This document shows positions 28,981 to 61,148 of a stretch of 64,000 bases of DNA, piece after piece. A model generated the notes under the pieces. That model had not been told where the DNA came from. It saw only the letters and a list, made by a program, of their open reading frames with translations, and did no database searches. The translations under genes and the position numbers were made by a program. The DNA comes from Planctomycetaceae bacterium (GTDB lineage: Bacteria > Planctomycetota > Planctomycetia > Planctomycetales > Planctomycetaceae): NCBI GenBank assembly GCA_021732845.1, contig JAKFUF010000001.1, positions 1-64,000 of the forward strand, in the 5' to 3' direction. How positions within the stretch are numbered: position 1 is the first letter of the stretch; each line of letters opens with the position of its first letter.

Positions 28981-29161
28981 TGGGATGCATGTTTCCAATC
29001 CAATGAGGCGCAACAGGTTATGCGCTTAACCGGTTTCGCTAATTGGCATTGCAAGTATTCATCCTTGGTCAGAGTTGGTCAGGGATTCTCAGCCTTTCGA
29101 TCGTGGATTGGCACACTGTGCCAATGATCAGATCTGGCAACTTCGGTTGGAGGTACCGAAG

Positions 29162-31096
29162 ATGTCAGTAAACTTGCAGCCGCCGCTCCGGCCGAAATTC
29201 GGTCTGATGTTGTTGGTGGTGATCATCGTCCGCATCAGCACCGTCCACCAGGATCTGCGGAGTCTGGCCGATCAGGAAGCGAAGTGTCGTGAGTATCTTC
29301 GACTGCACTACGGGGAAAATGTCGAGGTAATCCTCTTGTCCAGCCAGGGAAGCGGTGAGCATCTGGACCGTGAGGAACTGAATCAACTCGAATCTCTCAT
29401 CGAAGCCGGCAAGATCGATCTGGTGCTGGCAGAAGATCTAGCTCGTATCTGTCGCCGACAGCGGGCCTATGACTTCTGTGAGATGTGTTTGGACCATGGG
29501 GTGCGGCTGATCGCAATCAACGATCGTATCGACACGAGCGTCGAAAACTGGCAGGACAGTGCGTTTCTCGCCACCTGGCACCACGAAAGATCGAATCGTG
29601 ATACATCCAGTCGGATCAAAAGATCGCTCAACTCGCGTTTCGACCGGGGAGAGCTAATCCAGTCACTGCCCTACGGATACCTCAAGCCCGCGAATGCAAA
29701 AACCGACTCGGATATCGAAAAGGATCCCGCCGCGGAACCGGTCCTGAAAGAGATTTTCCGACGCCTGGAGGGCGGTGCCAACTATTCTGAAATCGCCGAC
29801 TGGTTGAAGGAGGCCAAGGTGCCCCCGGGTCCGAACTGTCGCTCCGATATCTGGAAGTGCAAAATGGTGTCGCGGCTGGTTCACAATCCGATCCTCAAAG
29901 GCGTCCGCGTGCGGAATCGCATGGTCACCAAGCGGGTGAACAAAACGGGACGCCACCGCTCGGTCAAGGGAACTCCCGATCAGTTGCGCAAGCGAGAATG
30001 TCCGCATCTCGCCTTCTTCGATCCGGCGTACTACGACCACATCATCCGGCAACTCGACGAACGGAATGCAATGTTCGTTCGCGCGAAGCCGGGTGCCGTA
30101 GATTCGCGCAAGGGAACCCCGCGAAAGCAGACCCGCTGGCCTGGTCAACATGCGCGCTGCGGAATCTGTGGGCGGCTGATGTATTGGACCAGGGATGGCA
30201 AGGCTCCGGCCATGATCTGCTCTGGAGCCCAGGATTATCGCTGTTGGAACTCCCAGATCATTCCTGGCGACCGGTACATGTCCAAACTCGTCACTGCAAT
30301 CCTCGCGTCCTTCCAAACTTTGCCTGGCTTTGATCCTGTGATCTTGCGGCAAGTGCAGGAGCGGATTCAGTCGGCGGGAAATGAAAGAGGAAGTCACATC
30401 GAAGCTACGGAGCAGCAGTTGAATGCGGTCACAAGGAAGCTCAGGTCGATTGTCGATGCTGTCGAGACGCAGTCGGGGAGTCGCTCGCTTCTCGAACGAC
30501 TGGGTCAGCTGGAATCTGAGCAGTCCGAATTGGAGTACAAACTCCAGCAACTGCGCAAACGACCGGCCACCAATATCATCGTGCCATCCCAAGAGGAACT
30601 GCTGAGCACCACCACGAGCCTTTTTGAACGCGTCGCGACCGAAGACCAAGAAGCCGGTCGCCTGCTGAGGCAACTGATCCCAGACTTCTTTGTCGTGCCA
30701 TGTCGAACCTGTGACGATGGTGCCATCGTCTCACGGGCACATCTGACACTCCATCTCTGCAGCCTGTTGCCAGCAGAGGCACGACAGCCAGAAACCGATG
30801 AGATCCTCATCCGGCCGCTCATCGTCGACCTGTTCGACCCGCCACAGCGGATCGCCTTTCGTGAACGTGTGCTGACCCTTCGCGAATCGGGTCTGACAGA
30901 GCGCGCCGCAGCGGACCAACTGGGAATCACGAAAACAGCAGCACAGCATGCGATGCGACTGCACCGAAAAATGCAAGAAGACGGCCTGACGGACCCCTAC
31001 CTTCGACTGCACGAAGTTCCAGAAAAGTCGAAATTCACCAGGCACCTGCATCCTCGCTTTTGCTTCGAGCCGCTCCCGGGGTTTCCACTGTCCTGA
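29162..31096 (+). CDS. Large serine recombinase
   Basis: 644 residues from the ATG at 29162, preceded by GGAGG about 10 bp upstream. The resolvase domain starts at VRISTVHQDLRSLADQEAKC with the nucleophile serine at residue 26. The recombinase domain follows (LPYGYLKP, then LEGGANYSEIADWLKEAKVP), next a zinc-ribbon (CGICGRLMYW with later cysteines), a coiled coil around 400-490, and a C-terminal HTH (LRESGLTERAAADQLGITKT). Large serine recombinases integrate and excise elements at att sites. Odd: the N-terminus has ~20 extra hydrophobic residues before the catalytic strand. A terminator follows 33 bp after the stop. Confidence 0.92.
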   Translation: MSVNLQPPLRPKFGLMLLVVIIVRISTVHQDLRSLADQEAKCREYLRLHYGENVEVILLSSQGSGEHLDREELNQLESLIEAGKIDLVLAEDLARICRRQRAYDFCEMCLDHGVRLIAINDRIDTSVENWQDSAFLATWHHERSNRDTSSRIKRSLNSRFDRGELIQSLPYGYLKPANAKTDSDIEKDPAAEPVLKEIFRRLEGGANYSEIADWLKEAKVPPGPNCRSDIWKCKMVSRLVHNPILKGVRVRNRMVTKRVNKTGRHRSVKGTPDQLRKRECPHLAFFDPAYYDHIIRQLDERNAMFVRAKPGAVDSRKGTPRKQTRWPGQHARCGICGRLMYWTRDGKAPAMICSGAQDYRCWNSQIIPGDRYMSKLVTAILASFQTLPGFDPVILRQVQERIQSAGNERGSHIEATEQQLNAVTRKLRSIVDAVETQSGSRSLLERLGQLESEQSELEYKLQQLRKRPATNIIVPSQEELLSTTTSLFERVATEDQEAGRLLRQLIPDFFVVPCRTCDDGAIVSRAHLTLHLCSLLPAEARQPETDEILIRPLIVDLFDPPQRIAFRERVLTLRESGLTERAAADQLGITKTAAQHAMRLHRKMQEDGLTDPYLRLHEVPEKSKFTRHLHPRFCFEPLPGFPLS

Positions 31097-31709: not shown

Positions 31710-32189
31710 ATGGCGAACAATTACCTGACATTCAAGGTCCATCTGCCGGAAGGCACCGACACTGCCGACAAACTGCTGGAACTCCGCCAACAGTTTGTTC
31801 GGCAGGTGGAACTCGCCGGCGGCAAAGTCACCGTCAACGAAGTTTTGCCCGCCTTCGAAGATCTGGGCATCGCTCGCTGGATCGTGGATGACTGCGAAAC
31901 GGAAGCCGCCAGTGGCCGTGAACTGCTGATGTCCCTGGGCAATGTTGCCGCCGATGCCGACAGCATCTTTGGCAACATGGTTTTCGAGGATGAGCATGGC
32001 GCGCTGCACAGGGTGATCACAACCTGGGAGATCTACGAACTTGTTGACCCCGAAGACAGGGCCGAACTGCTTGCCCAATTCCATGCTGCCGATGTTCAAG
32101 CCACGACAGGTGGCTCGGAATGGCGATGTCGCCGAGGACCATCAGCAGAGTCACGATGCTCAGAAAAAACAGAGGAGCAATGCAAGTGA
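31710..32189 (+). CDS. Hypothetical element protein
   Basis: 159 residues from the ATG at 31710. I do not recognise a family. The acidic C-terminal half includes the motif NMVFEDEHGALHRVITTWEI, which recurs in degenerate form at 32994-33126, so the gene was once duplicated. The end overlaps the start of the next gene by 10 bp, suggesting translational coupling. Confidence 0.7.
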   Translation: MANNYLTFKVHLPEGTDTADKLLELRQQFVRQVELAGGKVTVNEVLPAFEDLGIARWIVDDCETEAASGRELLMSLGNVAADADSIFGNMVFEDEHGALHRVITTWEIYELVDPEDRAELLAQFHAADVQATTGGSEWRCRRGPSAESRCSEKTEEQCK

Positions 32190-33028
32190 ACTCGCATTCA
32201 AAGACAGAAACAGCCTACGAACGGGCAGTCGGAGAAACGGCGGTCAGCGTCATTCAGGAACTCACCGACGAAGGCGGAGACGACGAGGAAGCCTACCGGC
32301 AGGCCGGCGAAGACTTCGCCGATGCCGTGGCGTCGAAGTGCTCGGAGATGCGGGGCATTGCCACGCCTCCGGCGTTCAAACGGAAACACTCCCGCGTCAT
32401 CGCGGTCGGCACCGACAACCACGGCGCCTCGCCGATCGTGGAACTGCGGACACGCCTGAGGGACGTGGAGTGCCCGCAGCAGGAGACTCCCGGCTGGCTC
32501 GACGTGTCGCTCATTCCCGGCAATGACTCCATCAGCATCACCGCTGCCGGGTATGGCGTCGACGACAACGACGTGATCGCGTCCCTCGAACTTTCCGGTG
32601 GGGATCTCAGGGTGGTGCGTTACGGCGACTTCGCCAGCGACGAACCGCGGATCGTCAGTCTGAACGGTGCCAAACGGGGAGCGGAACAACCAAACGTGGC
32701 TGCTCCGGGGACCACCGCCTGGTCTCGCGAAGACGCCGAGGCAGCCCAGGGCCAAGGCTCGGATCTGTTCGACGAGGGCGACCAGCTCAGCATCGAGCGG
32801 ATCGACGAGACGGAAGTCTTCAGGGACGACGCGGAGGCTCTGGAGTTCGTCCGAAAACAGGCGGCGGCCGGGGACGAGACGGCGATGAAGGCCCTCAGGC
32901 AGCACCTGGGGCCTGTGACTTCAGTCTCTGAGGGCCGAACCGTCGTCGACTCTCAAGGGCAGGTCGTCTGGGTCGCACCACCTCCCACGACGGATTCTCA
33001 ACAGCACCTTCCGCAACATGGACCTTGA
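32180..33028 (+). CDS. Hypothetical acidic element protein
   Basis: 282 residues from the ATG at 32180, set by an AGAGGAGC ribosome site just before it. No family recognised. The protein is rich in Asp/Glu with a low-complexity middle (DEGGDDEEAYRQAGEDFADA). Its last ~12 codons run over the beginning of a decayed copy of the previous gene in another frame, so the C-terminus may have been replaced by rearrangement. Confidence 0.65.
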   Translation: MQVNSHSKTETAYERAVGETAVSVIQELTDEGGDDEEAYRQAGEDFADAVASKCSEMRGIATPPAFKRKHSRVIAVGTDNHGASPIVELRTRLRDVECPQQETPGWLDVSLIPGNDSISITAAGYGVDDNDVIASLELSGGDLRVVRYGDFASDEPRIVSLNGAKRGAEQPNVAAPGTTAWSREDAEAAQGQGSDLFDEGDQLSIERIDETEVFRDDAEALEFVRKQAAAGDETAMKALRQHLGPVTSVSEGRTVVDSQGQVVWVAPPPTTDSQQHLPQHGP

Positions 33029-33126
33029 GGACGAGCACGGCATGATTCACAGGATCATCACCACTGAGAGACCCTGCAGGTCACCGACCCCGAGGAAACG
33101 GCCGACCTGCCTTCAAAGCTTTTCCC
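32994..33126 (+). pseudogene. Degenerate second copy of the 31710 gene's C-terminal part
   Basis: Translation gives NSTFRNMDLEDEHGMIHRI-ITT, then after a frame shift ETLQVTDPEETADLPSKLF. The intact gene reads DSIFGNMVFEDEHGALHRV-ITT and then EIYELVDPEDRAELLAQF. The two parts are in different frames and there is no start. Confidence 0.75.
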
Positions 33127-33158
33127 TCACGCAGACACCCGGAAAGGAGCCAACCTGA

Positions 33159-33806
33159 TTGATCCAAACCACAGTCCGCTGCCGGACGAACGATCCGGCG
33201 ATTCCCCGACCGCTGCTGGTCGTGGTCGAAGGCGCCAACGATGTCGAATTCCTGGTCCGCCTGTCCCGGCGGCTGTCCCAGGCCGACGACTCGATCCCCG
33301 GCCTCCAGCCCCTGAAGAACTCCGGACGAATCGTGTTCGTCCCCATTGGCGGCGGCAACCTCACGACCTGGACCGACCGCTTTGAACCGCTCGGGTGTCC
33401 CGAGTTTCACCTCTACGACCGCGAGACGCTGCCGGAAACCGAGCGGCGGCAGGCGGCGGTCGCGTACGTCGCCTCCCGTCCCGGCTGCCGGGCGTTCATG
33501 ACGGGCAAGCGGGCCCTGGAAAACTACCTGCACCCGCAGGCCATCGCCGCGGCCGGCGGCGGTGAGATCACTTTCGGCAACGACGACTGCGTCACATCCG
33601 TTCTGGCCCGCGCCTGGTACGGGCCGGGCCGCAACTGGTGCGAGCTGCCCGGCCGCGTTCGCACCCGCTTCTCGCAGCGGACAAAGCGCTGGCTCAATAC
33701 CGTGGCGGTCGAGCAGATGACGCCGGAACTTCTCAGCCACAGCGATCCCGCCGGTGACATCCAGACATGGCTGCAGACGATTGCCGAGATGGCGTCCGTC
33801 CGTTGA
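33159..33806 (+). CDS. Stand-alone OLD-type TOPRIM protein
   Basis: 215 residues with a TTG start at 33159; the AAAGGAG ribosome site at 33143-33149 decides it, and no ATG fits. TOPRIM signature: VVVEGANDVEFL with Glu24 as the candidate catalytic residue, and FHLYDRE (Asp87) as the metal-binding strand. The family is seen in OLD nucleases, primases and topoisomerases, but the ABC ATPase half of OLD proteins is missing, so any nuclease would need a partner. The C-terminal half contains AFMTGKRALENYLHP, a conserved feature of planctomycete relatives. It precedes the DUF1257 gene by 60 bp and may be part of the same transcript. Confidence 0.75.
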   Translation: MIQTTVRCRTNDPAIPRPLLVVVEGANDVEFLVRLSRRLSQADDSIPGLQPLKNSGRIVFVPIGGGNLTTWTDRFEPLGCPEFHLYDRETLPETERRQAAVAYVASRPGCRAFMTGKRALENYLHPQAIAAAGGGEITFGNDDCVTSVLARAWYGPGRNWCELPGRVRTRFSQRTKRWLNTVAVEQMTPELLSHSDPAGDIQTWLQTIAEMASVR

Positions 33807-33866
33807 GCCCGTCTGCCGAGCGCATCGCCTTCCTACCCATTCTCTTCACTCTCGTTGGAGAACCGC

Positions 33867-34229
33867 ATGTCGCACATTGTGCAGATCCAGACCGAAGTCC
33901 GTGATCCCGCCGCAGTCCGTTCCGCCTGTGAGCGGCTCAGGCTGCCGCTGCCGATGCGGGGCACCTTCAGACTCTACAGCCAGTCGGCCACCGGACTGGG
34001 CGTCCAGCTGGCGGGCTGGAAGTATCCGGTCGTCTGTGACACCACCGCCGGCACCGTGGCCTACGACAACTACAACGGGCACTGGGGACCGCAGCAGCAG
34101 CTGGACGGTTTCCTCCAAATGTATTCAGTGGAAAAAACTCGCATTGAAGCCAGGCGACGGGGACACACCGTCACTGAACAGGCGCTGGCGGACGGATCCA
34201 TCAAGCTCGTCGTACAGGTGGGTGGCTGA
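33867..34229 (+). CDS. DUF1257 (Ycf35-family) protein
   Basis: 120 residues from the ATG at 33867 with GGAG 8 bp upstream. DUF1257 is recognised by MSHIVQIQTEVRDPAAVRSA, the LPMRGTFRLYSQSATGL turn, GWKYPVVCD and ARRRGHTVTEQ. Ycf35 occurs in cyanobacteria and red-algal plastids and has no established function. Here it directly precedes DUF2997 and a Ycf46-like ATPase, which argues that the three act together. Confidence 0.9.
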   Translation: MSHIVQIQTEVRDPAAVRSACERLRLPLPMRGTFRLYSQSATGLGVQLAGWKYPVVCDTTAGTVAYDNYNGHWGPQQQLDGFLQMYSVEKTRIEARRRGHTVTEQALADGSIKLVVQVGG

Positions 34230-34296
34230 TTTCACACAGGCAGAAACGTGGCTGTTCTGAGTTCCAACCTTCAAACACGAGCGGAGTCATTTCTCC

Positions 34297-34488
34297 ATGA
34301 AGACGATCGAGATCATTGTCTCACCCAGCGGAAAGACGCAGGTCGAGACCAAGGGGTTTACAGGCGGCAGCTGCCGCCAGGCCAGCGAGTTCATCGAACT
34401 GGCCCTCGGACAGCGGACCGGAGAGCAGCTGACCAGCGAATTCCACCAGACGGTATCGCAAACGCAGAATGTCCAGCAGGGCACGTGA
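34297..34488 (+). CDS. DUF2997 protein
   Basis: 63 residues. The DUF2997 pattern is clear: MKTIEIIVSPSGKTQVETKG, then FTGGSCRQASEFIELALG. The family commonly travels with DUF1257, as here (67 bp downstream of it). Small soluble protein of unknown function. The 183 bp after it hold no gene. Confidence 0.9.
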   Translation: MKTIEIIVSPSGKTQVETKGFTGGSCRQASEFIELALGQRTGEQLTSEFHQTVSQTQNVQQGT

Positions 34489-34671
34489 CGCCTGAGTCCA
34501 GCCGCTGTAACAACTGAGGATGTTGGCCCGCCGCATGGATTGAAGTGCTCCATCGCGGCTGTGACCGCCCATAAACGTCACCCTTGACGTTCGCTTCTCT
34601 GCCGGCTGGCGGTCAGCTCTGACTGCCTCATCCCGCCGGCCTCTCCAAAACACTCTCACGGAGATCCATCC

Positions 34672-36162
34672 ATGACGCTCATCGAGCGCCTTTCCGAACT
34701 GATTCGCGCCTGCTTCTCCGGCCTGTGGATCGAATCCCATGAACATCAGGACGCCCTGGGTGAAATCACCATGCTGTGCCACAGCGAAGGCTGGCGGCTG
34801 GCCACCTGGGACATCGACCGCGGCCTGGCGATTGTCGGGCAGACTGACACCGCCCAGGCGGGCGGACAGGATCCGCTGGCCGCCATCCGCTCGCTGGAGT
34901 CGATGGCCACCCCGGACGGGACCGCGGTTCTGGTCCTGCAGAATTTCCACCGCTTCCTTCAGTCCGCAGAGATCGTGCAGGCCCTGGTCCGGCAGCTCAC
35001 CACCGGCAAGCAGACCCGCACCTTCGTGATCATTCTGGCACCCGTGGTGCAGATTCCGATCGAGCTCGAAAAACTGTTCGTGGTTCTGGAGCATGAGCTT
35101 CCCGGCCGCGAACAGCTCGCCGAGATCGCCCGTGGCATCGGCACCGAGGAGGGCGATCTGCCGACCGGGGCCGATCTGCAGATGCTTTTGGATGCCGCAT
35201 CAGGACTGACACGCCATGAAGCGGAGGCGGCCTTCAGCCTGTCGCTCATCCGCCACGAAAGGATTACGCCCGATGCCGTCTGGGAGCTGAAGTGCCAGAC
35301 GCTCAAGAAAAGCGGCCTGCTGTCGCTGCATCGCGGTCGGGAATCCTTCAGCAGCCTCGGCGGGATGACAGCGTTGAAGGCGTTCACCAAGCGGGCGCTG
35401 CTGCAGCCCAGCCGGGGCAATCCCTTGAAACGGCCCCGCGGAGTCCTGCTGCTCTCGCCGCCGGGCTGCGGCAAATCACAGTTCTGCAAGACCCTCGGCA
35501 ACGAGGTCGGACGTCCGGTGCTGATGCTGGATGTCGGCCAGTTGATGGGCTCCCTTGTGGGACAAAGCGAGGAGCGAACAAGGCAGGCGTTGCGGATCAT
35601 CGACGCGATGGCCCCCTGCGTGGCAATGATCGACGAGGTGGAAAAGGCCTTCGCCGGTGTCGGCAACGCCAATGACAGCGGTGTCTCGGCCCGGATGTTC
35701 GGAACCTTCCTGTCGTGGCTCAACGACCACGAATCGGATGTGTTCGTCGTCTGCACGGCGAACGATGTCTCCAAGCTGCCGCCGGAGTTCGGGCGGGCAG
35801 AACGGTTTGACGGAATCTTCTTTCTTGATCTGCCGGGTGCCAAAGAGAGGGAGGCAATCTGGAACCTGTATCTCGACCAGTTCCAGATCGACCGCACCCA
35901 GCGGCTGCCGGACGACGCCCAGTGGACGGGGGCGGAGATCCGGGCCTGCTGCCGCCTGTCCGCGCTGCTGGATGTGCCGCTGCAGCAGGCGGCCCAGAAC
36001 GTGGTGCCCGTGGCGGTGACGGCGGCCGAGACTGTGGAACGCCTGCGGACCTGGGCCAGCGGCCGCTGCCTCTCGGCTGACCAGCCGGGAATCTACAGCC
36101 GCGATGTGCAGCCGGCATCAGGTGCCCGCCGTCGCGTCAACCGGGATGCGTCCAGCAACTGA
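34672..36162 (+). CDS. AAA ATPase, Ycf46-like
   Basis: 496 residues. N-terminal ~230 residues are a family-specific domain; the AAA core follows with Walker A SPPGCGKSQ (262-270), Walker B CVAMIDEVEK (316-325), the second region of homology around RAERFDGIFFLDLPG, and a C-terminal lid (WTGAEIRACCRLSALLDVPL). This matches the large AAA proteins related to Ycf46 of cyanobacteria and plastids. With DUF1257 and DUF2997 immediately upstream it forms a recognisable three-gene unit. Role unknown; remodelling a protein or nucleoprotein is the default guess for AAA proteins. An IS has inserted 12 bp after its stop. Confidence 0.9.
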   Translation: MTLIERLSELIRACFSGLWIESHEHQDALGEITMLCHSEGWRLATWDIDRGLAIVGQTDTAQAGGQDPLAAIRSLESMATPDGTAVLVLQNFHRFLQSAEIVQALVRQLTTGKQTRTFVIILAPVVQIPIELEKLFVVLEHELPGREQLAEIARGIGTEEGDLPTGADLQMLLDAASGLTRHEAEAAFSLSLIRHERITPDAVWELKCQTLKKSGLLSLHRGRESFSSLGGMTALKAFTKRALLQPSRGNPLKRPRGVLLLSPPGCGKSQFCKTLGNEVGRPVLMLDVGQLMGSLVGQSEERTRQALRIIDAMAPCVAMIDEVEKAFAGVGNANDSGVSARMFGTFLSWLNDHESDVFVVCTANDVSKLPPEFGRAERFDGIFFLDLPGAKEREAIWNLYLDQFQIDRTQRLPDDAQWTGAEIRACCRLSALLDVPLQQAAQNVVPVAVTAAETVERLRTWASGRCLSADQPGIYSRDVQPASGARRRVNRDASSN

Positions 36163-36165
36163 CCG

Positions 36166-36174
36166 ATTTGCAAT
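36166..36174. repeat. Target-site duplication, left
   Basis: ATTTGCAAT, identical to 37931-37939, directly flanking the IS end. Confidence 0.95.
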
Positions 36175-37930
36175 GGGCGCAACCGGTCTTCCGTGGCGAA
36201 CTGGGGCAAGTGGCGGGGGTTGGCAAAATGACCTCCAGAGCGTTGAATGAGAGGTGTCAAAAACCCCATTCGGTACGCCAAGGAGGTCGTTGCCATCATG
36301 TGTCAGAAACAGGATGAAGGCAAGGTTGAGGTGCAGTTTGCGGAACTGGACGCGGCGGTTGGCGAACTCCGGGGAATGGTCCTCAAGGCCTTCGAAGGCA
36401 AGGAGCCGCTGCATTTGGTGGAGGGTGGCCTTTTCCGCAAAGTGATGCAGATCGGCCTGGCGGCATTGAAGAAGCTGATCGAACTGCACGGCACCGGGGA
36501 TGTGGGGCCGACCTACACGCCTGGCGGGGAACCCGAGCAGTATCGCCAGCCACAGACCAGGCGGCGGGAGTACCAATCGATCTTTGGGACTCTGGAAATC
36601 GAACGCACGGTCTACACGCGTGGCTGCAAGCAGCAGGAATTCGCGCCGTTGGACGCCATTCTGGGCCTGCCCGAGGGGAAGTTCTCGTACTACGTGCAGG
36701 ATGTGGCCCAGATGCTGGGCACGGATCTGGCGTGGGAGAAAGGCCGCCGGGTGCTGAAGCGTTTGCTGGGATGGGACATTCCGGTGGACAGCCTGGAGCG
36801 GATGAACCGCCACATGGCTGAAGCCACGGCGGACTACCAGGCGCAGCGGCCGCTTCCCGCGGCGGGTGAGGAGGGCGGGCTGTTCGTGATCACTGCCGAT
36901 GGCAAGGGGATCCCCATGCGGCGGGAGAAGCCGGAGAAGCCTGCCGAGGAGGCGGCGGACTCGGACCATAAACCGGAGCGTGAGCCGGTGTCGATCCACA
37001 TCCTGCCGTCGGCGCAGCGCGGCCCGCTGCCGGGGCGTAAGCAGATGTCGGTGGTGGGGGCGATCTACAGCGTCGACCGCTTTGAACGCACGCCTGAAGA
37101 GATCCTGCAGGCGTTGTTGCGGGAGACCCCCGCGGAGGGGGAGCAGAAAAAAGCCCGTCCAGAGCCTGTGGGCAAGCATGTCTGGGCGGCACTGGACGAG
37201 GAACTGCCAGTGACGGAAGTCTGCCATCATGACGGCACTCCGCTGACTTTTCCGGCAGTCGATGCGACGTTCAACCAGCTGGCGGAAGAGCACCTGCGGC
37301 GGGATCCGCTGCGAACCCGCCCGCTGGTGCGGGTGATGGACGGCGAAGCCCGCCTGTGGGCCACGGCGGACATCTACCTGCCGCTGGGGCGGCATCCCGA
37401 CGACGCGGATGTTCTCGACATCCTGCATGTCTCGCAGTATTTGTGGAAGGCCGCCGGGGTTCTGGCGCAGGGTCGGCAGGCACAGGAGGCCTTCCTGCGC
37501 GGCAGGCTGGAGCAGGTCCTGAACGGCGAGGTCCACAACGTGATCAAGGGCCTGCGGGCCCTGGCCACGCGTCGGGAACTTCGCGGCCCCGCCCTGCAGA
37601 CGGTGTCCGCGGTCTGTGGCTACTTCTCCCGTCACGCCGACGGGATGCGCTATGACGAATATTTGAAGAAGGGCTACCCGATCGCCAGCGGGGTGATCGA
37701 GGGTGCCTGCCGGCACCTGGTGAAGGACCGGCTGGAACGGACCGGAATGCGCTGGATCCGCGCCGGCGCCCAGGCCATGCTCAACACCCGGAGCCTGTGG
37801 CTCAACGACGAATGGGATGCCTTCCAGACGCACTACACACAACGCGAACTCAACCGCCTCTACCCCGACCGGCACTCATTAATTCAGCAGAATTTCGCCG
37901 TCACAGCCTGACGGAAGACCGGTTGCGCCC
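36175..37930 (+). mobile_element. ISKra4-family insertion sequence, complete
   Basis: 1756 bp with perfect 20 bp terminal inverted repeats: GGGCGCAACCGGTCTTCCGT at 36175-36194 and its reverse complement at 37911-37930. A 9 bp direct duplication ATTTGCAAT flanks it. It contains one transposase gene. The perfect ends and duplication point to a fairly recent insertion. Removing it leaves a ~50 bp gap between the AAA ATPase and the next gene. Confidence 0.97.
36298..37911 (+). CDS. ISKra4-family transposase
   Basis: 537 residues from the ATG at 36298, set by an AAGGAGG ribosome site at 36280-36286. Family features: YQSIFGTLEIERTVYTRG and the C-terminal YPIASGVIEGACRHLVKDRL with LERTGMRWI, where the catalytic Glu is expected. 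Aspartates in FVITADGKGIPM and FPAVDATFNQ or ILHVSQYLWK segments complete the expected DDE region. It catalyses cut-and-paste or copy transposition of the IS. Its stop codon TGA lies inside the right terminal repeat. Confidence 0.95.
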   Translation: MCQKQDEGKVEVQFAELDAAVGELRGMVLKAFEGKEPLHLVEGGLFRKVMQIGLAALKKLIELHGTGDVGPTYTPGGEPEQYRQPQTRRREYQSIFGTLEIERTVYTRGCKQQEFAPLDAILGLPEGKFSYYVQDVAQMLGTDLAWEKGRRVLKRLLGWDIPVDSLERMNRHMAEATADYQAQRPLPAAGEEGGLFVITADGKGIPMRREKPEKPAEEAADSDHKPEREPVSIHILPSAQRGPLPGRKQMSVVGAIYSVDRFERTPEEILQALLRETPAEGEQKKARPEPVGKHVWAALDEELPVTEVCHHDGTPLTFPAVDATFNQLAEEHLRRDPLRTRPLVRVMDGEARLWATADIYLPLGRHPDDADVLDILHVSQYLWKAAGVLAQGRQAQEAFLRGRLEQVLNGEVHNVIKGLRALATRRELRGPALQTVSAVCGYFSRHADGMRYDEYLKKGYPIASGVIEGACRHLVKDRLERTGMRWIRAGAQAMLNTRSLWLNDEWDAFQTHYTQRELNRLYPDRHSLIQQNFAVTA

Positions 37931-37939
37931 ATTTGCAAT
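37931..37939. repeat. Target-site duplication, right
   Basis: ATTTGCAAT, matching 36166-36174. Confidence 0.95.
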
Positions 37940-37960
37940 CCACTTCATCCAGGAGTCTCC

Positions 37961-38371
37961 ATGTCCGAGTCAGCATTCATCAACGTGCCGGTAAATTGCC
38001 TGCCTGTGGTGCTGTCGGCACTGCGCAAGGCCGGCCAGGTTGAAGCGGCTCAGCAGGCCACCGAGGCATCCCGGCACTATCTGGATCCAGATGCCAATGC
38101 CAGCCGGCTGGGATGGCTGAGATGGGCCCGCCAGGAATACGAAGCCGAAGACATCGAGTTCGACGACGATGCCACCGTCAGCGAAACCGACGATGACGGA
38201 GCCTTTGTGCTCGGCTGGGTGTGGGTGACCGCGCCGCGGCATGCCGGCTGCGAATGCTGCCACTGCGATGAAGTGATTGCCGGCGAAGCGGATGGCACCA
38301 GCACACCGCACGGCTCAATGCACCATGAATGCGCGGCAGAGCACGAGGCCGAGCACCCCGACGACTGGTAG
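37961..38371 (+). CDS. Hypothetical element protein, acidic with Cys/His tail
   Basis: 136 residues; GGAG 6 bp before the ATG. N-terminal half is helical (NCLPVVLSALRKAGQVEAAQ), the middle very acidic (EDIEFDDDATVSETDDDG), and the end Cys/His-rich (CECCHCDEV...HHECAAEHEAEH), which may bind zinc. Not recognised. Before the IS inserted it lay ~50 bp after the ATPase gene and was probably in its operon. Confidence 0.7.
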   Translation: MSESAFINVPVNCLPVVLSALRKAGQVEAAQQATEASRHYLDPDANASRLGWLRWARQEYEAEDIEFDDDATVSETDDDGAFVLGWVWVTAPRHAGCECCHCDEVIAGEADGTSTPHGSMHHECAAEHEAEHPDDW

Positions 38372-38550
38372 CGCCCGTCGAAACGTCAGGCGATGCCGGC
38401 ATCCGCCAAGGATGTGCTGCATTGCCGTCCATCCCTCTCCTCCGCTTTCAAAAACTGTTCGCCCGGCTGTGACGCGGCAATTCCTCCAATTGGAGAAGTA
38501 TGTTGTGCCTCCCACAACGAAATCGCTGACCCTCAACCCCTGAGCCACTT

Positions 38551-38769
38551 ATGAGCCGAAGTCGCAAGCAGCCCGAGCCGCGTCTGGCCCTGGCCTCCTT
38601 CACACGACAGGGCAATCTGACACCTCTGCTGATGACTGCCAAGAAATGCGTCACAGAGCCGGTGTATGCGAACTACGAGGGGATGAAGGCGGTGATCCGG
38701 CTGAATCCCCAGATCGAGTTCAGTGTCACGATCCTGGGACACATTCCTGACCCTGCCACTCAACCGTGA
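38551..38769 (+). CDS. Small hypothetical element protein
   Basis: 72 residues, basic N-terminus. No family recognised. The ribosome site is weak and the gene is short, but its position in a run of same-strand genes and ordinary composition support it. The 179 bp before it contain no gene. Confidence 0.45.
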   Translation: MSRSRKQPEPRLALASFTRQGNLTPLLMTAKKCVTEPVYANYEGMKAVIRLNPQIEFSVTILGHIPDPATQP

Positions 38770-38833
38770 TCATCAGATCCCGCACCGACTGACCTGTTTT
38801 TCTTCACTCCCATTTCCCTCTGCGAGCCACTCC

Positions 38834-39775
38834 ATGAATTCACTGCTTGATGCCCCTGCCCGCACCCAGCACAACCCCGCGCAAAGGCTGCGGTCCGTGA
38901 TGGCCGCGATGCGGCTGTCGTTCACCTGGTTCGGCGTCCGCAAGACGCTCTCCCCCGAGCAGAAGGCCCGCGCGGCCGACGCCTTTGGGGCCGAGGGCGA
39001 GTTCCTCTCTGCCGGCAAGAAGCTCATCGACACCCGCGATGCCGACTTCCGGGCAGTCACCTCCGTCCGCAGCCATGCGGTTTCCTATTTCAAGGGGGTG
39101 AGCCTGCCTTATCCCGAGCCCGGCATCCGTCTGGTGCCACAGGGCGAACTGGATGAAATCAACACCCGCATGGCGCGGTTCAAGGACGAACTCGACAGCG
39201 CTGTCGCCACGCTGGACAACCACTTCGATGACCTCAAGGCCGCCGCCCAGTCCCGGCTGGGCCGGCTGTTCAACCCCAGCGACTACCCGCAGTCGCTGAC
39301 CGGCCTGTTCGACCTCACCTGGGACTGGCCCTCGGTCGAGCCACCGGAATATCTGCGGCAACTCTCCCCCGACCTGTACCGCGAAGAGTGCGCGCGGGTC
39401 CAGTCCCGGTTCGACGAGGCGGTGCAGCTTGCCGAGCAGGCGTTCCTGGACGAACTGTCCAAACTGATCTCGCACCTCACCGAACGGCTGTCGGGCACGG
39501 AGGACGGCAGGCCCAAGGTGTTCCGCGACAGCGCCATCGAGAACCTGACCGAGTTCTTCGACCGCTTCCGCAAGCTCAACATCCGCTCCAATGGCCAGCT
39601 CGATGATCTGGTGGGTCAGGCCCAGAGCATCGTGAGCGGCGTGCAGCCCCAGCAGCTGCGGGACAATGCCGCCCTGCGACAGCAGGTGGTGACGCAATTG
39701 GCTGGCACCCAGTCCGTCTTGGACGGTGTCCTCGTCGATCGGCCGCGGCGGGCGATCCTGCGGCGGCCCAAGTAA
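38834..39775 (+). CDS. Hypothetical helical element protein
   Basis: 313 residues from the ATG at 38834. Mostly alpha-helical with likely coiled-coil stretches (RMARFKDELDSAVATLDNHF; FDEAVQLAEQAFLDELSKLI). It resembles conserved proteins found beside the DUF1257/AAA genes in planctomycete accessory regions, but I cannot name a family with certainty. No signal peptide or membrane segment. Sixteen bases separate it from the next gene, so the two are likely cotranscribed. Confidence 0.75.
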   Translation: MNSLLDAPARTQHNPAQRLRSVMAAMRLSFTWFGVRKTLSPEQKARAADAFGAEGEFLSAGKKLIDTRDADFRAVTSVRSHAVSYFKGVSLPYPEPGIRLVPQGELDEINTRMARFKDELDSAVATLDNHFDDLKAAAQSRLGRLFNPSDYPQSLTGLFDLTWDWPSVEPPEYLRQLSPDLYREECARVQSRFDEAVQLAEQAFLDELSKLISHLTERLSGTEDGRPKVFRDSAIENLTEFFDRFRKLNIRSNGQLDDLVGQAQSIVSGVQPQQLRDNAALRQQVVTQLAGTQSVLDGVLVDRPRRAILRRPK

Positions 39776-39790
39776 CCCTCAGGAGACGCC

Positions 39791-40033
39791 ATGCAGCTTT
39801 TGATCGAACCCGGCGGAGCGATCCGCTGCGTGTATGACGAACAGCTGGATCTGCAGAGCCTGGGACGGCTCTCCATCCAGCGGGGCTCGCATGTCGAACC
39901 CACTGACGACGGCCAATGGACGGCCGACCTCTCGCCGGTGCAGGGACCGCTGCTGGGGCCATTCGCCAGCCGCACGGAAGCTTTGGCGGCCGAACGCGAG
40001 TGGCTGGAAACGCACTGGCTGACACCCGCCTGA
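39791..40033 (+). CDS. Small conserved element protein
   Basis: 80 residues with a good CAGGAG ribosome site. Pattern LIEPGGAIRCVYDEQLDL, SHVEPTDDGQWTADLSPVQG, GPFASRTEALAAEREWLETH: I associate this with small unannotated proteins of similar planctomycete elements. Function unknown. Confidence 0.75.
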   Translation: MQLLIEPGGAIRCVYDEQLDLQSLGRLSIQRGSHVEPTDDGQWTADLSPVQGPLLGPFASRTEALAAEREWLETHWLTPA

Positions 40034-40139
40034 TCCGCAGGCGGTTAGGAATCTCAATCGTGCCCCTTGTGGGCGGCTTTCCCTCTTCAGCCGCCCCGAC
40101 TGTGGGGCGGCGTTCTCTCCCTCTCCCAGAGCCAACGCC

Positions 40140-40355
40140 ATGAACCAACGTGAAATCAACCGAGCTGTTGCCCGCGCCACCGGCGAAGACCTCTCCGAAA
40201 TCAGCCGCCGTGGCTTCAGCATCGCTGATCCGGCCGTGATCGGCTTCGACCCGGAGCCCACTGAATTCGATGAAGCGATCGACTGGGACGAACTCGACGG
40301 AGAGCGTGGCGTCTCGGTGCTCCCGCTGCGCCGCAGTGAGCGTCTTGCCGCCTGA
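40140..40355 (+). CDS. Small conserved element protein
   Basis: 71 residues. EINRAVARATGEDLSEISRR suggests a short HTH-like N-terminal segment; the remainder (FDPEPTEFDEAIDWDELDGE) is acidic. Likely a small DNA-related or adaptor protein of the element, but no family is assigned. An ATG at 40140 with CCAGAGCC before it gives only a weak ribosome site. Confidence 0.65.
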   Translation: MNQREINRAVARATGEDLSEISRRGFSIADPAVIGFDPEPTEFDEAIDWDELDGERGVSVLPLRRSERLAA

Positions 40356-40479
40356 ACCCTCATCTGTCCACCGACATTTACAGCTCCGATGTCCGGCCTG
40401 CGGGCCGGGCATCGGGGCTGGTCGTGTTCAGCCCAGTGGCTCACCGGGCTCCCTCATCCCCCACATCAAAGGCACTCTG

Positions 40480-41865
40480 ATGATCACCCTTTCACGCAAG
40501 CTGGTTCGCACCCTGCGGTCCATGTTCCGCCGGGCCGGCGACGGCAGCCGCCATGTTCAGCCTCCGGTTCTGTTTGAAGCCAATGCCAGCGGCCTGACAG
40601 TTCAGTGCCATTCGGGCCGGACCGTGGTCTCCCATCAGCTGCCCGGTCCGCATCCTGACGCCCGGCTCGCTGTGGCGCTCCGCGACATGGCGGAGTTCGA
40701 AGGCGGACGCGACCAGCCGGTGACTCTCCGCGGCGACGGTGATTCCGTCATTGCCGAATGGGTCGAGGCCGGGATCCCCCAGCACCGGACCTTCGACGCC
40801 ATCGACTGCACCGGGCTGTCGGCACCGGTCCTGCCCCCGGACATGGTCCCGCTGGGCGCGGACGCCTTCGCCGAACTGGCGGAGGTTGCCAAATGCTGTG
40901 CAGACGACCGTCTGAAGTACGGACTCGACTGCCTCCAGCTGCGCGGTCGGCAGGGCTTGGCTGCCGCCACCGACACGCGGCATCTCCTGGTGACCAGCGG
41001 CTTTCCCTGGCCCTGGCAGGATAACCTGCTGATCCCCAAGACGGCCCTCTTTGCCAGCAGCGAACTGGCAAATCTCGGCCCCGTCCGCGCGGGCCGCACA
41101 GAGGACCATGTGGTGTTCGCGGCCGGGCCGTGGACGCTGTGGCTGCCGATTGAAAAGGAACTTAGGTTCCCGGAATACGAGTCGATCATTCCGGACATGG
41201 CCTACGCGCCGACAAAGGTGAGCTTCACCACGGATGACAGGCAGTTCCTGCGGCAGACGATCGGCAAGCTGCCTCAAATCGAAGGCACGGAGCATGCCGT
41301 CACGGTCCACTGCAACGGGCACGTGGCGGTCCGCGGCCGCGGAGAGACCGGCCCTGTCACCGAACTGGTGCTCAGCAACTCATCGGTCCAGGGCGAGGAG
41401 GTGCGGGTCAACATGGACCGTGGGTTCCTGCTCCGCGCGGCCCAGTTGGGCCTGTCGCAGATGGGGGTTTGGAAGAACAGCGCCCCCGTCCTCGCCGCCG
41501 ATGACCGGCACCAGTACGTCTGGCAGCCGCTCTGCCCGGACCTCGCCATCGGGCCGGATCCGGAGGCTGTCACCATCCGCTCCCCGGTGGCGACCGTCGC
41601 CAAATCTCAGGAATTGAGCAAGCCCGGGGTGATCGCCGCCACAGCGATGCCTGCTCCACCCCGCATCGCTGAACCGGTCCCCAAGGAAGGGACCACCGAG
41701 AATCCAGCGATCGACCCTCTGGCAGAAGCGGAGGCCCTGCGCGACAAGCTGCGGGAATCCCTGGGGCAGATCAACCGGGTCATCACCGGCCTGAAGCGGC
41801 AGAAACGCCAGCAGCGGTTCGTGCGGACGCTACTCTCGCGGATGCCGATGCGGGAAGTCGCCTGA
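40480..41865 (+). CDS. Possible beta-sliding-clamp-like protein
   Basis: 461 residues from the ATG at 40480. The middle part (about 130-320) has clamp-like strand patterns: YGLDCLQLRGRQGLAAATDT followed by RHLLVTSGF recalls the 'ATDGHRL' strand of DnaN, with later FPEYESIIPD matching the FP-x-Y-x-x-x-IP motif of clamps. The N-terminal basic segment and C-terminal coiled coil (ALRDKLRESLGQINRVITGL) are additional. If the reading is right it would be an element-encoded clamp, tying the element to replication or repair. It could also be an unrelated three-domain protein; structure prediction would settle this. Confidence 0.5.
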   Translation: MITLSRKLVRTLRSMFRRAGDGSRHVQPPVLFEANASGLTVQCHSGRTVVSHQLPGPHPDARLAVALRDMAEFEGGRDQPVTLRGDGDSVIAEWVEAGIPQHRTFDAIDCTGLSAPVLPPDMVPLGADAFAELAEVAKCCADDRLKYGLDCLQLRGRQGLAAATDTRHLLVTSGFPWPWQDNLLIPKTALFASSELANLGPVRAGRTEDHVVFAAGPWTLWLPIEKELRFPEYESIIPDMAYAPTKVSFTTDDRQFLRQTIGKLPQIEGTEHAVTVHCNGHVAVRGRGETGPVTELVLSNSSVQGEEVRVNMDRGFLLRAAQLGLSQMGVWKNSAPVLAADDRHQYVWQPLCPDLAIGPDPEAVTIRSPVATVAKSQELSKPGVIAATAMPAPPRIAEPVPKEGTTENPAIDPLAEAEALRDKLRESLGQINRVITGLKRQKRQQRFVRTLLSRMPMREVA

Positions 41866-41962
41866 CAGGCTGCCTGGATCGCTTCACGCCACTGCGGCTG
41901 CGATGGATTCGTGCGCGTCCGGGTCCAATCCATCTACTCTGACAACCTCTTCGGGAGTCTTC

Positions 41963-42181
41963 ATGAATCGTCAGATCCACATGAATCGTGGAATCAACTG
42001 GTGTGGCGTCATCGGCGCCACAGTGTGCTTCACGGGAATACTGATGCTGGTCTTTCCGGAGCCCCGAAACAGCCCGCTACCACGATCTACACACCCTACA
42101 CAGACGAAGCGCAACGGCCGATCCTCTGAGCCAGTGCCTGTTCCCGACCGCACTCGCAAGATCCAGGCAGTCCGTCGCTGA
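41963..42181 (+). CDS. Small single-pass membrane protein
   Basis: 72 residues from the ATG at 41963 with GGGAG upstream. One membrane segment (WCGVIGATVCFTGILMLVF, about 13-31) and a basic, Pro/Thr-rich tail. No family recognised. Confidence 0.5.
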   Translation: MNRQIHMNRGINWCGVIGATVCFTGILMLVFPEPRNSPLPRSTHPTQTKRNGRSSEPVPVPDRTRKIQAVRR

Positions 42182-42275
42182 AGTGCTGGGTCAGCCAGGC
42201 GAAAAACTGAATCTCGTGAGCCGCCCGTCCCTGAACCGGCGGCTCGGTTCGTTTCATCCCTCTCAGGAATCTGTG

Positions 42276-42767
42276 ATGCCACTGAAACTCAACGTTGGCC
42301 TCAGCCGGAAAATCGGACTGCCGAACTACAGCAGTCTGGGAGCCTCCTGCCATGTCGAACTCGAACTCGACAGTGCGCTCCTGCAAACCGATCGTGAAGC
42401 CTTTCAATGGCAAGTCCGCAACGCCTATGGTGCGTGCCAGCAGGCAGTCCAGGAAGAGCTGTCCCGCCATGAATCGACACCTGGCGATTCCGGACGGGTG
42501 GAATCTGGTCAGATAGGCTCTCCCTTCGCCGGCCGCGCGCCCGGCCCTTACGCCAACCGGCCCCAGGGTCGGATCCGTCCGGCCACCGAGAACCAGGTCC
42601 GGGCGATTCACGTGATTGCCAATCAGCAGCAGGTGGATCTTGCGGAACTGCTGAGACTGCGTTTTGTGGCCCAGGCGGAAGAACTCAGCGTCCGCGATGC
42701 CTCCAGTTTGATTGACGAACTGAATGCGCGGGTTTCGGGACAGCCGCGGCCCCGGATCGCGGGTTGA
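42276..42767 (+). CDS. Conserved element protein
   Basis: 163 residues from the ATG at 42276. The N-terminus MPLKLNVGLSRKIGLPNYSS followed by LGASCHVELELD is a pattern I know from unannotated planctomycete element proteins; there the C-terminal part (here IRPATENQVRAIHVIANQQQ, then a helix) resembles a short DNA- or protein-binding domain. Function unknown. Confidence 0.75.
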   Translation: MPLKLNVGLSRKIGLPNYSSLGASCHVELELDSALLQTDREAFQWQVRNAYGACQQAVQEELSRHESTPGDSGRVESGQIGSPFAGRAPGPYANRPQGRIRPATENQVRAIHVIANQQQVDLAELLRLRFVAQAEELSVRDASSLIDELNARVSGQPRPRIAG

Positions 42768-44085: not shown

Positions 44086-46335
44086 TCAGGGCACAATCAA
44101 CACGATTCTGAAGCCCACGTCGAAATGCCGCCGCGAGGGCATTTCTCCCATACGCTTTGCGGAACGACAACTGGGAGAATCGCTTTTGCAGCCTCCGCCT
44201 CGGGATACTCGTCGGATGTCGGCAATTCCCCGCGGATCCTTCCCGCCTGGCAACCGATCGTTAAATCCGTCCAGACACCATTCGTAGACATTTCCGTGCA
44301 TGTCCTTCAATCCCCACCGATTGGGCCGCAGCACGCCCACGGGATGCACAACGCCATCGGCGTTTTTACTGAACCAGCCATGTTCAGGCAGTTCCGCAGC
44401 ATTGGGCCCGAATCCATACGCCGTCGACGTACCGGCGCGGCAGGCATATTCCCATTCCGCTTCGGTGGGAAGGCGATAAGCGCCTTCTGCGGGCAGTCGT
44501 CCCTCTTTTTGCTCCTGCTGCGTCAGTTTCTCGCAGAATTCCACCGCGCTGTCGGGCTCACCGCTATGGCAGACACTGACGGCTGGGAATTTTTCGCCGC
44601 TGCTCACGGACGGTTTCCCCATCCACGGGCTGGTCTGCATCAGCGTCGTCCACTGCGCCTGCGTGACCTCTGTCTGCGACATCCAGAAGCCACGCGTCAG
44701 TGTGACACTGACGGGCTTCTCGTTCTTTCCGCCTTTTTCCGTGGTGGGACTGCCCATGATGAATTCACCCGCCGGGCACCAATGAAAGGTAATCGCGAGA
44801 CTGTCCAGCGTCCATTCGTCGCCGGGATTCATTCCCGCCACCGGCAATTTGCTGACGGGCTCTGCAGGGACAGGGGGCTTCTCCGGAAGGGTTACTGGTG
44901 GAACTGGCTTGGGAACAACAGCAGGTGCGGGTGGCGCGACCGATGGGACGGGTGTGACCATCGGCATTGGTTCGGGAGTCGTGCTTTCGACACGCTCCGG
45001 GTCCGTAGCGCCTTCCGGCTTTTCCGGCATCGGGGTGCCGGCGGCGCCTGTCGTAGAACCGGGATCGACAACGGTGAGGCCGGAATCTGGATCTTCGGTC
45101 TTGGGATGCGACTCAGTGTCCGAAACGCTTGAGCCCTTTTCTTCGGGAACGCTCGGGGGATTCGTCGGCAGGGCGGCAATCGGGTCGGCTTTGCGGTCCT
45201 TCCAATTCTTGAACTGAACGGCAGCAAACGCTCCGGCAACAACTAGCACCATCAAGGCGATCGAAGCCATCAGGCTCCATAACTGCCCGCGTCGAGAACG
45301 GGGTTCCGCGACGGCACTCGGTTTCAATTGATGCGTGCCCCGACTGCTGGCATCAATGGTCTCGGCGGCCGTGGGCCGTTTTCCGTAAAGCGCCGAAGTG
45401 TCTGTGGGAGAATACGGCCGATCCAGCTTCGGCGGGCGCGCTGCATTTTCCTGCGAGATCGCGTAATGATTCAGTGTCCCAAACGAGACTGCTGGTGCCG
45501 CGGTGCGGGCCAGCGTGTCTTCGATTTGCAAGGCCAACGTGCGCGCATCTGGCGTTCGCCGCTCGCGTGTCGGCTCCATCGCCGTGGCGATCAAATCCGA
45601 AACTTCAGGGGGAATGTCGGAGCGGATCGAATCCAGCCGGTCTGCCATCGCGTTGTGGGCCAGCTTCATGATCATCAGATGGACACTCTTGTCCTGAAAC
45701 GGCGGATTCCCGCTCAACAGGCAGTACGCTGTGGCTCCGAGCGAATAAATATCCGTGCGATGATCCAGGCGGTCGCAACGGCACTGCTCGGGGGACATGT
45801 ACGCCGGCGAGCCGACAACCCCGCTGACCGAACTGATCTCCGAGTTCTCCTCCCGGACCAGTCCAAAGTCCATCAGCAGAACGCGGCCAGATGCCGTCAG
45901 CATCAGGTTATGGGGCTTGATGTCGCGGTGGATCAGCCCGTGCGCATGCACTTCGGCAAGTCCATTCGCCGCGTCACGGATCCAAGTCAGCACCTGTCGC
46001 CAGTCCAGAGGCTCGGTTGAACCCTTCAACACCTGCGACAGGTCGTGCCCTTTGACAAACTGCATCACGATGTAGAGCAGGCCGTGCAGGTCGCCCGCGT
46101 CATAAATCGGAATGACATTTGGATGCTCGACCCGTGCCGCCAGCCGGGCTTCCTTCAGGAAGCGGTCGCGGTCGTGCGGTTCATGCTGAAGTCCGATCCG
46201 CGCGGTTTTGACCACCACGGATTTCTGCAGCACCTGGTGCTCGGCGAGATAGACATCGCCCATCCCGCCGCGGCCGATCAATCCGACGATGCGGCAGGCG
46301 CCGAGCACCATGCCCGCTGGCAGATCTCCCGTCAT
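44086..46335 (-). CDS. Membrane Ser/Thr protein kinase fused to an FGE-sulfatase-type domain
   Basis: 749 residues from the ATG at 46335. Kinase domain ~10-275: GRGGMG loop (21-26), HRDIKPHN (136-143), DFG (156-158), SPAYMSPEQ, all intact, so activity is likely. One membrane helix at ~352-374, then a Pro/Ser/Thr-rich stalk to ~500. Residues ~504-749 form a formylglycine-generating-enzyme-like (SUMF1) domain: WCPAGEFIMGSP, FWMSQTEVTQAQW, YRLPTEAEWEYACRAGT, DMHGNVYEWCLDG, RVSRGGGCKSD. Such fusions are typical of planctomycetes; the FGE part, outside the membrane, may bind ligand rather than act on sulfatases. The neighbouring secreted helical gene lies 99 bp upstream on the same strand. Confidence 0.93.
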   Translation of the reverse strand: MTGDLPAGMVLGACRIVGLIGRGGMGDVYLAEHQVLQKSVVVKTARIGLQHEPHDRDRFLKEARLAARVEHPNVIPIYDAGDLHGLLYIVMQFVKGHDLSQVLKGSTEPLDWRQVLTWIRDAANGLAEVHAHGLIHRDIKPHNLMLTASGRVLLMDFGLVREENSEISSVSGVVGSPAYMSPEQCRCDRLDHRTDIYSLGATAYCLLSGNPPFQDKSVHLMIMKLAHNAMADRLDSIRSDIPPEVSDLIATAMEPTRERRTPDARTLALQIEDTLARTAAPAVSFGTLNHYAISQENAARPPKLDRPYSPTDTSALYGKRPTAAETIDASSRGTHQLKPSAVAEPRSRRGQLWSLMASIALMVLVVAGAFAAVQFKNWKDRKADPIAALPTNPPSVPEEKGSSVSDTESHPKTEDPDSGLTVVDPGSTTGAAGTPMPEKPEGATDPERVESTTPEPMPMVTPVPSVAPPAPAVVPKPVPPVTLPEKPPVPAEPVSKLPVAGMNPGDEWTLDSLAITFHWCPAGEFIMGSPTTEKGGKNEKPVSVTLTRGFWMSQTEVTQAQWTTLMQTSPWMGKPSVSSGEKFPAVSVCHSGEPDSAVEFCEKLTQQEQKEGRLPAEGAYRLPTEAEWEYACRAGTSTAYGFGPNAAELPEHGWFSKNADGVVHPVGVLRPNRWGLKDMHGNVYEWCLDGFNDRLPGGKDPRGIADIRRVSRGGGCKSDSPSCRSAKRMGEMPSRRHFDVGFRIVLIVP

Positions 46336-46434
46336 GTTGCATCGCCTGTCTGTACGAATTGCACGCGAGGCCGCCGGATTCAACCGGCCCCCACAGAGTG
46401 AGAACCGTCAATGCGGATATCGCCGTTGTCCGGC

Positions 46435-50617: not shown

Positions 50618-50636
50618 TGGCCTCGAACGGTTTTGA

Positions 50637-52820: not shown

Positions 52821-53019
52821 GGATTCCCCACATAATCAGTGGCGGAGAGGGAACGCAAACGGAAACTGCTCACCTTCTCAGTAGTCGAGCGGAACTGATA
52901 ATCGTTTTATCGTTTTAGTACCTATTAACTTTCTCTAGAACATGGCGTACAGTCGCGGTCGTGCTCTTGCATTATCGCTTCGCTAGAGTCTCGAAGTTTC
53001 CTGACGCCGTGAGTATCGT

Positions 53020-54615: not shown

Positions 54616-54712
54616 GAGGTCTCCTGTTTTGGAGTCGGAACCATAAACGACCCGGCAAGGTTGCCGTTCGCATCCATACAGCTGCCGTTTATGATTCCTG
54701 TGACCCGCGGAA

Positions 54713-55111: not shown

Positions 55112-55171
55112 CAGAATTCTCCAGGTGAAAAAGTTCGCGGCATTTCCGCAGTCAGAGTGCTTGCTCCGCCG

Positions 55172-55867: not shown

Positions 55868-55870
55868 GCG

Positions 55871-57091: not shown

Positions 57092-57093
57092 GA

Positions 57094-57903: not shown

Positions 57904-57964
57904 GACGAATCCTTTCATGAGAGTCATTCCGCTGTTCGCGGCAAACAGATGCCGCGTGGTCTGG

Positions 57965-61126: not shown

Positions 61127-61148
61127 TTCTGCTCACTCCATTCGCGGT

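Follow-up and report, generated by a model that had tools for sequence, protein, structure and literature searches.

What relatives of Ycf35 and Ycf46, two proteins conserved in cyanobacteria and many algal plastids, are doing side by side in a planctomycete is the question raised by this locus. It lies on a 64,000-nucleotide stretch of DNA from a Planctomycetaceae bacterium (assembly GCA_021732845.1, contig JAKFUF010000001.1, positions 1 to 64,000), hereafter the window, for which an earlier note had proposed an integrative element and a DNA-metabolism module built around DUF1257 (Ycf35), DUF2997 and Ycf46-like AAA genes. No established function of Ycf35 or Ycf46 was found in the open-licence literature. 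Our analysis revealed that these genes belong to a core with exchangeable 3' modules, an arrangement that we regard as nearly certain: the window carries a module containing a sliding clamp (module A), and other loci carry a ubiquitin-like (Ubl) module (module B) in its place. The anatomy of this system is well supported, and from the gene context we infer its function; the best overall explanation, to which we assign a probability of about 50%, is a clamp- or Ubl-directed AAA remodeller engaged in genetic conflict.

The fixed core comprises Ycf35/DUF1257, DUF2997, the Ycf46-like AAA protein, a DUF3150-like protein and two small proteins, g397 and g401, arranged as one operon-like cluster. In the window, the conserved set occupies 31710-42767, entirely on the + strand. 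The gene set delimited previously was conserved up to its end at 42767, but it started too late, at 34672, since the conserved unit begins upstream (DUF1257 at 33867, a 5' gene at 31710), and one of its listed genes is the transposase of an insertion sequence (IS; 36165-37940), which does not belong to the set of genes from TOPRIM to g42183 carried at 33159-42767. The DUF1257 protein (33867-34229) alone scored 17.4 bits against PF06868, under the cut-off of 22.2, but 21 of its 23 aligned homologues matched the family at E<=0.01 (best 2e-15), and the call was thus borne out through them. The DUF2997 protein (34297-34488; 57.6 bits against PF11211, cut-off 24.1; Pfam 1e-15) and the AAA ATPase (34672-36162; Pfam AAA 2e-26) were both clear at the positions given before. 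Walker A (GxGK) and Walker B (DE) motifs of the ATPase were invariant in an alignment of 21 homologues, and its nearest solved AAA domains were those of Cdc48/p97. Its N-terminal region is common to AAA proteins neighboring DUF1257/DUF2997, and the Ycf46-like label refers to this likeness rather than to a plastid Ycf46 sequence. The most diagnostic gene encodes g38723 (38834-39775), a DUF3150-related helical protein whose homology to plasmid DUF3150 proteins was evident by hhalign (E=2e-35); direct membership in Pfam DUF3150 was rejected, as no usable match was obtained at 0.01 and profile-profile comparison alone worked. Nothing meaningful came out of PDB when its sequences were searched with this protein's alignment. 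In the open-licence literature, DUF1257 or DUF2997 is mentioned in three papers and DUF3150 in none. In 71 of the 72 named loci with room for it, g397 (g39791; 39791-40033), a small conserved protein also encoded in phage contigs, follows g38723, and g401 (g40140; 40140-40355) completes the core in planctomycetes.

The order DUF1257-DUF2997-[TOPRIM]-AAA-DUF3150-g397-g401 recurred in about 30 loci, and DUF2997 was present in 44 of 294 planctomycete genomes, although not all of these hits represent this operon. When the DUF3150 alignment was used to scan 84,980 species genomes, 210 relatives emerged, 80 of which were kept as named loci, nearly all labelled Planctomycetota, and most of the 80 showed the order as far as their contigs reach. 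Overall, the order was present in about 100 loci, almost all planctomycete. Individual genomes carried as many as seven DUF2997 places or, in another genome, seven clamp places. In IMG/VR, 24 loci encode DUF3150 relatives, mostly as DUF1257-DUF2997-AAA-DUF3150-g397 plus one extra gene; genes for a baseplate wedge protein and for tail fibres were identified on one contig of 205 kb. Terminase_6N was rejected as proof of viral origin after matching in 1 of 12 records, and baseplate and tail families took its place for this contig. In two of the phage versions (L188, 10897-11904; L194, 10897-12108), a protein with the look of a left-handed beta-helix lies between DUF3150 and g397 and matches PHROGs of unknown function. 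A plasmid of Candidatus Manganitrophus (Nitrospirota) carries AAA-DUF1257-DUF2997-DUF3150, with ParB and PRTRC genes at a distance of about 8 kb; Burkholderiales plasmids place PRTRC genes near an ATP-binding protein, DUF3150 and a VWA protein, and also carry a type IV secretion system (T4SS). A Rhodovastum plasmid has AAA-DUF3150-VWA, with no PRTRC genes in the stretch examined, and on Thermovibrio, Geminocystis and Paenibacillus plasmids DUF1257 and/or DUF2997 adjoin the AAA gene, with a 4Fe-4S protein near it in Paenibacillus. The conserved module postulated in the earlier note, together with its gene order, was therefore recovered in Planctomycetota and large phage contigs, with recombinases near some copies, and its genes occur together, in other orders, on plasmids of Nitrospirota, Cyanobacteriota, Bacillota and Aquificota. 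Three further chromosomal loci (L082, L083, L090) combine a distant AAA protein (33-34% identity) and DUF2997 with a different conserved neighborhood, including an ATPase that looked PilT-like by eye, and likely represent a separate chromosomal Ycf46 cluster. Mycobacterium phage Ryadel, a Corndogvirus (L205), encodes a Ycf46-like AAA protein (31%) near ParB-like and Ku-like genes.

Module A consists of a sliding-clamp-fold protein, g421 and a PD-(D/E)XK nuclease, and the window carries the first two of these genes. What had been noted before as a possible sliding clamp proved genuine: the protein encoded at 40480-41865, which has a long C-terminal helix, matched the DnaN profile at 7e-8, its AlphaFold model had a pLDDT (predicted local distance difference test) of 88, and the top 50 Foldseek hits were all DnaN clamps (E about 1e-20; for the three-domain fold, E 2e-20 and a template-modelling score of 0.75 by target), with structural matches to viral DnaN proteins as well. 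The model firmly indicates a three-domain DnaN clamp fold, and the protein may act as a ring dimer that slides on DNA and binds clamp-binding motifs. The following gene, g421 (g42183; 42276-42767), had no significant family match in profile searches. The stand-alone TOPRIM protein (33159-33806), an OLD/GajA-like optional accessory, held up through EG..D, DxE and ENY motifs invariant in 14 homologues and a weak match to GajA (6e-5); it lies 5' of DUF1257 in the window, whereas in other loci it is mostly found between DUF2997 and AAA. A suspected tie of TOPRIM to loci with module B (type B loci) was unsupported in the named set. The start codons adopted here for DUF1257 (33867), the DUF3150-like protein (38834), the clamp (40480) and g42183 (42276) are the likely ones. 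The clamp, the TOPRIM protein and the PD-(D/E)XK nuclease of other loci are DNA-related components in keeping with the DNA-metabolism module suggested earlier.

The four proteins of module B are a ThiS/ubiquitin-like protein, an E2-like one whose C-terminal part holds a zinc cluster, a peptidase of the JAMM type and an E1-like enzyme. The E1 matched ThiF at 1e-24, the Ubl matched ThiS at 2e-5 and ended in a conserved KIEG[AG], and the JAB protein, weak by family match, contained a complete JAMM motif with invariant residues. When the E2-like protein was compared by structure, E2 enzymes made up almost the whole of the top 50, but at weak E values (0.1-0.9) that are only suggestive of an E2 fold; the protein has an invariant Cys in HPHV..LCEG and many CxxC zinc ligands. 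The ThiF, ThiS and JAMM signatures of a Ubl pathway are found in type B loci rather than in this window, and make these loci candidates for Ubl conjugation. Both modules, recognized by clustering of open reading frames (ORFs) and tblastn, are usually placed after g401. Where there was room for a module (39 named loci), A was present in 13, B in 16, both in 5 and neither in 5, and mapping these states on a DUF3150 tree, a quick tree with some long branches, required at least 18 changes.

DUF2997 occurs at four places in the window's own genome, including a degenerate copy, and the clamp at five, four of them full-length; some contigs break inside repeats, and halves of one locus may therefore lie on different contigs. 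The degenerate copy (L007, 9147-10448) consists of broken, reordered pieces of DUF1257, DUF2997, DUF3150 and g397. Between the window and the other copies, protein identity was 92-96% for AAA, 88-93% for DUF3150 and 51-58% for the clamp, and the synonymous divergence (dS) across the operon was 0.77-1.19. The ratio of nonsynonymous to synonymous divergence (dN/dS) was 0.02-0.05 for AAA and 0.36-0.39 for the clamp and the 5' gene (0.39 for the latter), so that these two proteins changed several times faster than AAA at similar dS. The even dS and low dN/dS indicate that the operon diverged as one unit under purifying selection, with the clamp and the 5' gene evolving fastest. A foreign clamp swapped into the window copy was rejected as the cause of its divergence because dS is even along the operon, which points to faster protein evolution instead. 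In the DUF3150 tree, the copies of the window's genome and those of genome G298 each formed a single cluster, whereas those of G238 were scattered, indicating both amplification and separate acquisition.

Cdc48-class AAA proteins remodel proteins, sliding clamps tether their partners to DNA, and E1-E2-Ubl-JAMM cascades tag and untag proteins. In the mechanism that we propose, the AAA protein would be a hexameric remodeller of the Cdc48 class, for which Ycf35, DUF2997 and the DUF3150 protein would act as adaptors and the swappable 3' module would set the address. In type A loci, such as this window, the clamp would tether the AAA protein to DNA, with TOPRIM and, elsewhere, the PD-(D/E)XK protein as candidate nucleases; in type B loci, the E1-E2-Ubl-JAMM cascade would mark and unmark proteins for it. 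On planctomycete chromosomes, the setting would be genetic conflict, either defence against phages and plasmids or competition between mobile elements. Remodelling of nucleoprotein or of tagged protein by the AAA component is probable in our judgment, and a defence or conflict role of the chromosomal copies, which rests on genomic context, appears evenly balanced between right and wrong. A broader view, in which planctomycetes, jumbo phages and plasmids share a new class of conflict machine of which plastid ycf35 and ycf46 are relics, is tentative and on present evidence unlikely. Across the loci described here, the AAA core is linked both to a ubiquitin-like pathway of bacteria and to a sliding clamp of its own, a pairing for which no paper was found in the open-licence literature, although an earlier description elsewhere is possible. 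Here Ycf35 and Ycf46 are constant members of a mobile operon that exists in multiple copies and has defined partners, which makes their role testable through the binding partner of the AAA protein, its remodelling of clamp-bound nucleoprotein versus Ubl-tagged proteins, and phage restriction.

The conflict role draws on the company that the chromosomal copies keep. Type I methylases, specificity and restriction subunits and DISARM/Hma-like helicases were confirmed beside several copies, and across 20 genomes a module lay near 4 of the 8 strong DrmD genes (about 0.12 expected, P=3e-6) and near 4 of the 20 HsdR genes (about 0.33 expected, P=3e-4), where the P values assume independently placed genes. 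Among the window genes scanned, there was no restriction or DISARM neighbor. Several observations weigh against a conflict machine. The distance windows of 10 and 15 kb were set after the neighbors had been seen, which makes these P values indicative only. Mobile DNA of any kind tends to have defence genes around it, and their proximity is no proof of defence. The AAA protein had only a generic AAA (IetA) match in PADLOC, the clamp's dN/dS of 0.36 still denotes purifying selection, and the action of AAA on Ubl-tagged proteins is drawn by analogy. The core also occurs on phages and plasmids, as expected of a housekeeping module of mobile elements. To the main rival explanation we give a substantial minority of the probability: the operon would serve the DNA maintenance or replication of a mobile element, whether phage, plasmid or integrative, whose own replication, partition or transfer would depend on the clamp, nucleases and AAA protein, and the chromosomal copies would be integrated or domesticated elements. 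It is consistent with the occurrence of the core in large phage contigs, including the contig that encodes baseplate and tail proteins, with the ParB- and PRTRC-bearing Manganitrophus plasmid, with DUF3150-VWA adjoining PRTRC and T4SS genes on Burkholderiales plasmids, and with serine recombinases beside some copies, among them the large one of the window (29075-31096, +; Pfam Resolvase 5e-13, Recombinase 5e-10). However, in the chromosomal flanks viewed, without a systematic search, no replication initiator or partition gene was recognized, many copies had no recombinase in their available flanks, and a single genome of 5.5 Mb holds seven clamp copies, most of them accompanied by the complete gene set, which would be unusual for replication modules. 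The recombinase family adjoins about 12 loci (the window, L059, L061, L063, L074, L177, L127, L130, L152, L155, L157 and L165) and is absent beside L005 and L006, the closest copies of the window with upstream flank available, and in the own-genome copies DNA similarity stops short of it. No convincing long direct or att repeats flanked the window unit, although serine-integrase att cores can be very short. The recombinase is therefore a frequent companion rather than a member of the unit; mobility is plausible for some copies, and the description of the locus as an integrative element built around these genes was not sustained. At L177 (152-6011), the sequence immediately 5' of a type B operon holds a phage-integrase-like ORF followed by two large serine recombinases, and the contig gave a terminase match as well.

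The cyanobacterial duf2997-ycf35-fed7 cluster (PMC4284462), the distant chromosomal AAA-DUF2997 loci and the 4Fe-4S protein near AAA on the Paenibacillus plasmid would fit an AAA system that is redox-linked or a chaperone of the cell, with no part in conflict; we consider this reading improbable, as a multi-copy, patchy, module-swapping, phage- and plasmid-borne distribution adjacent to restriction and DISARM genes is unlike housekeeping. The wholly different gene content of modules A and B and the many switches on the core tree would also be compatible with two unrelated systems, one for Ubl conjugation and one of clamp and nuclease, landing by chance downstream of a common operon. This appears very improbable to us, given that both lie on the same strand as the core, mostly at one insertion point after g401 and with tight spacing, and that a few loci carry both, features that argue for functional coupling. 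The Ubl alternative module, the defence-gene neighborhood and the copy number are all points beyond the earlier note.

Among known systems, PRTRC is closest in layout to type B loci, being an operon of several small genes that includes ThiF/E1 and the JAMM-like PRTRC A and has an AAA ATPase and a DUF3150 gene in its vicinity, and the DUF3150 proteins of PRTRC-associated plasmids are homologous to the planctomycete one. PRTRC proteins C and B are Ubl-like and E2-like, respectively. Membership of type B in PRTRC was nevertheless rejected, as profile comparison of its Ubl, E2-like and JAMM proteins with PRTRC C, B and A (three sequences each) gave nothing significant, and the planctomycete ThiF matched TIGR03736 at 2e-8, far under the cut-off and more weakly than other ThiF families. 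The planctomycete loci further differ in that no PRTRC ParB, E or F was seen and in their Ycf46-like AAA protein with Ycf35 and DUF2997, in contrast to the separate ATP-binding protein and VWA protein of Burkholderiales plasmids. The plasmid ATPase-DUF3150-VWA triad shares the pairing of an AAA/ATP-binding protein with DUF3150 but has another AAA type and a VWA partner, without Ycf35 or DUF2997. Type B also resembles Bil, Bub, CBASS type II and 6A-MBL, bacterial Ubl conjugation operons linked to immunity (PMC10097602, PMC13373217), in combining E1, E2-like, Ubl and/or JAMM genes, a likeness confined to enzyme classes. Its PADLOC cross-matches were limited to E1 and JAB (E1-E2, BilD and JAB models), and it differs from these systems in its separate small E1, the many CxxC zinc ligands of its E2-like protein and its joining to a Ycf46 core; moreover, neither a CD-NTase nor any further effector of known type was seen. 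Cyanobacterial and plastid ycf35, ycf46 and DUF2997 belong to the same families, and cyanobacteria share the DUF2997-ycf35 adjacency (PMC4284462); their cluster differs in its ferredoxin partner, and no DUF3150, clamp or Ubl genes are reported for it in the literature found.

The remaining genes of the window, all on the + strand up to the end of the cluster, surround or interrupt this set. The fast-evolving 5' gene (31710-32189) was found beside own-genome copies only (51-55% identity in L005 and L006) and is overlapped by an ORF at 32180-33028; just 5' of the TOPRIM gene, a remnant at 33018-33158, judged by eye to resemble the end of the 31710 gene, suggests a partial duplication or insertion there. 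The ISKra4 insertion (36165-37940; transposase 36247-37911, NCBIfam ISKra4 1e-69) has 30-bp terminal inverted repeats (36165-36194/37911-37940, 90% alike) and is missing from L005, and its gene was rejected as a member of the system on the basis of the NCBIfam match and these repeats. Beside it, a small acidic protein (37961-38371), probably not core, resembles over a short stretch a gene of phage contig L183 (17230-17349), and a short gene at 38551-38769 is common to L005 (61% identity over 51 aa). Downstream of the cluster, a Ser/Thr kinase-FGE-sulfatase fusion is encoded at 44086-46383 (-), and large kinase-like ORFs also flank L005, L006, L007 and L077. Further on, a heavy-metal P-type ATPase and RND efflux (CusA-like) cluster was recognized by eye at 49773-62774 (-).
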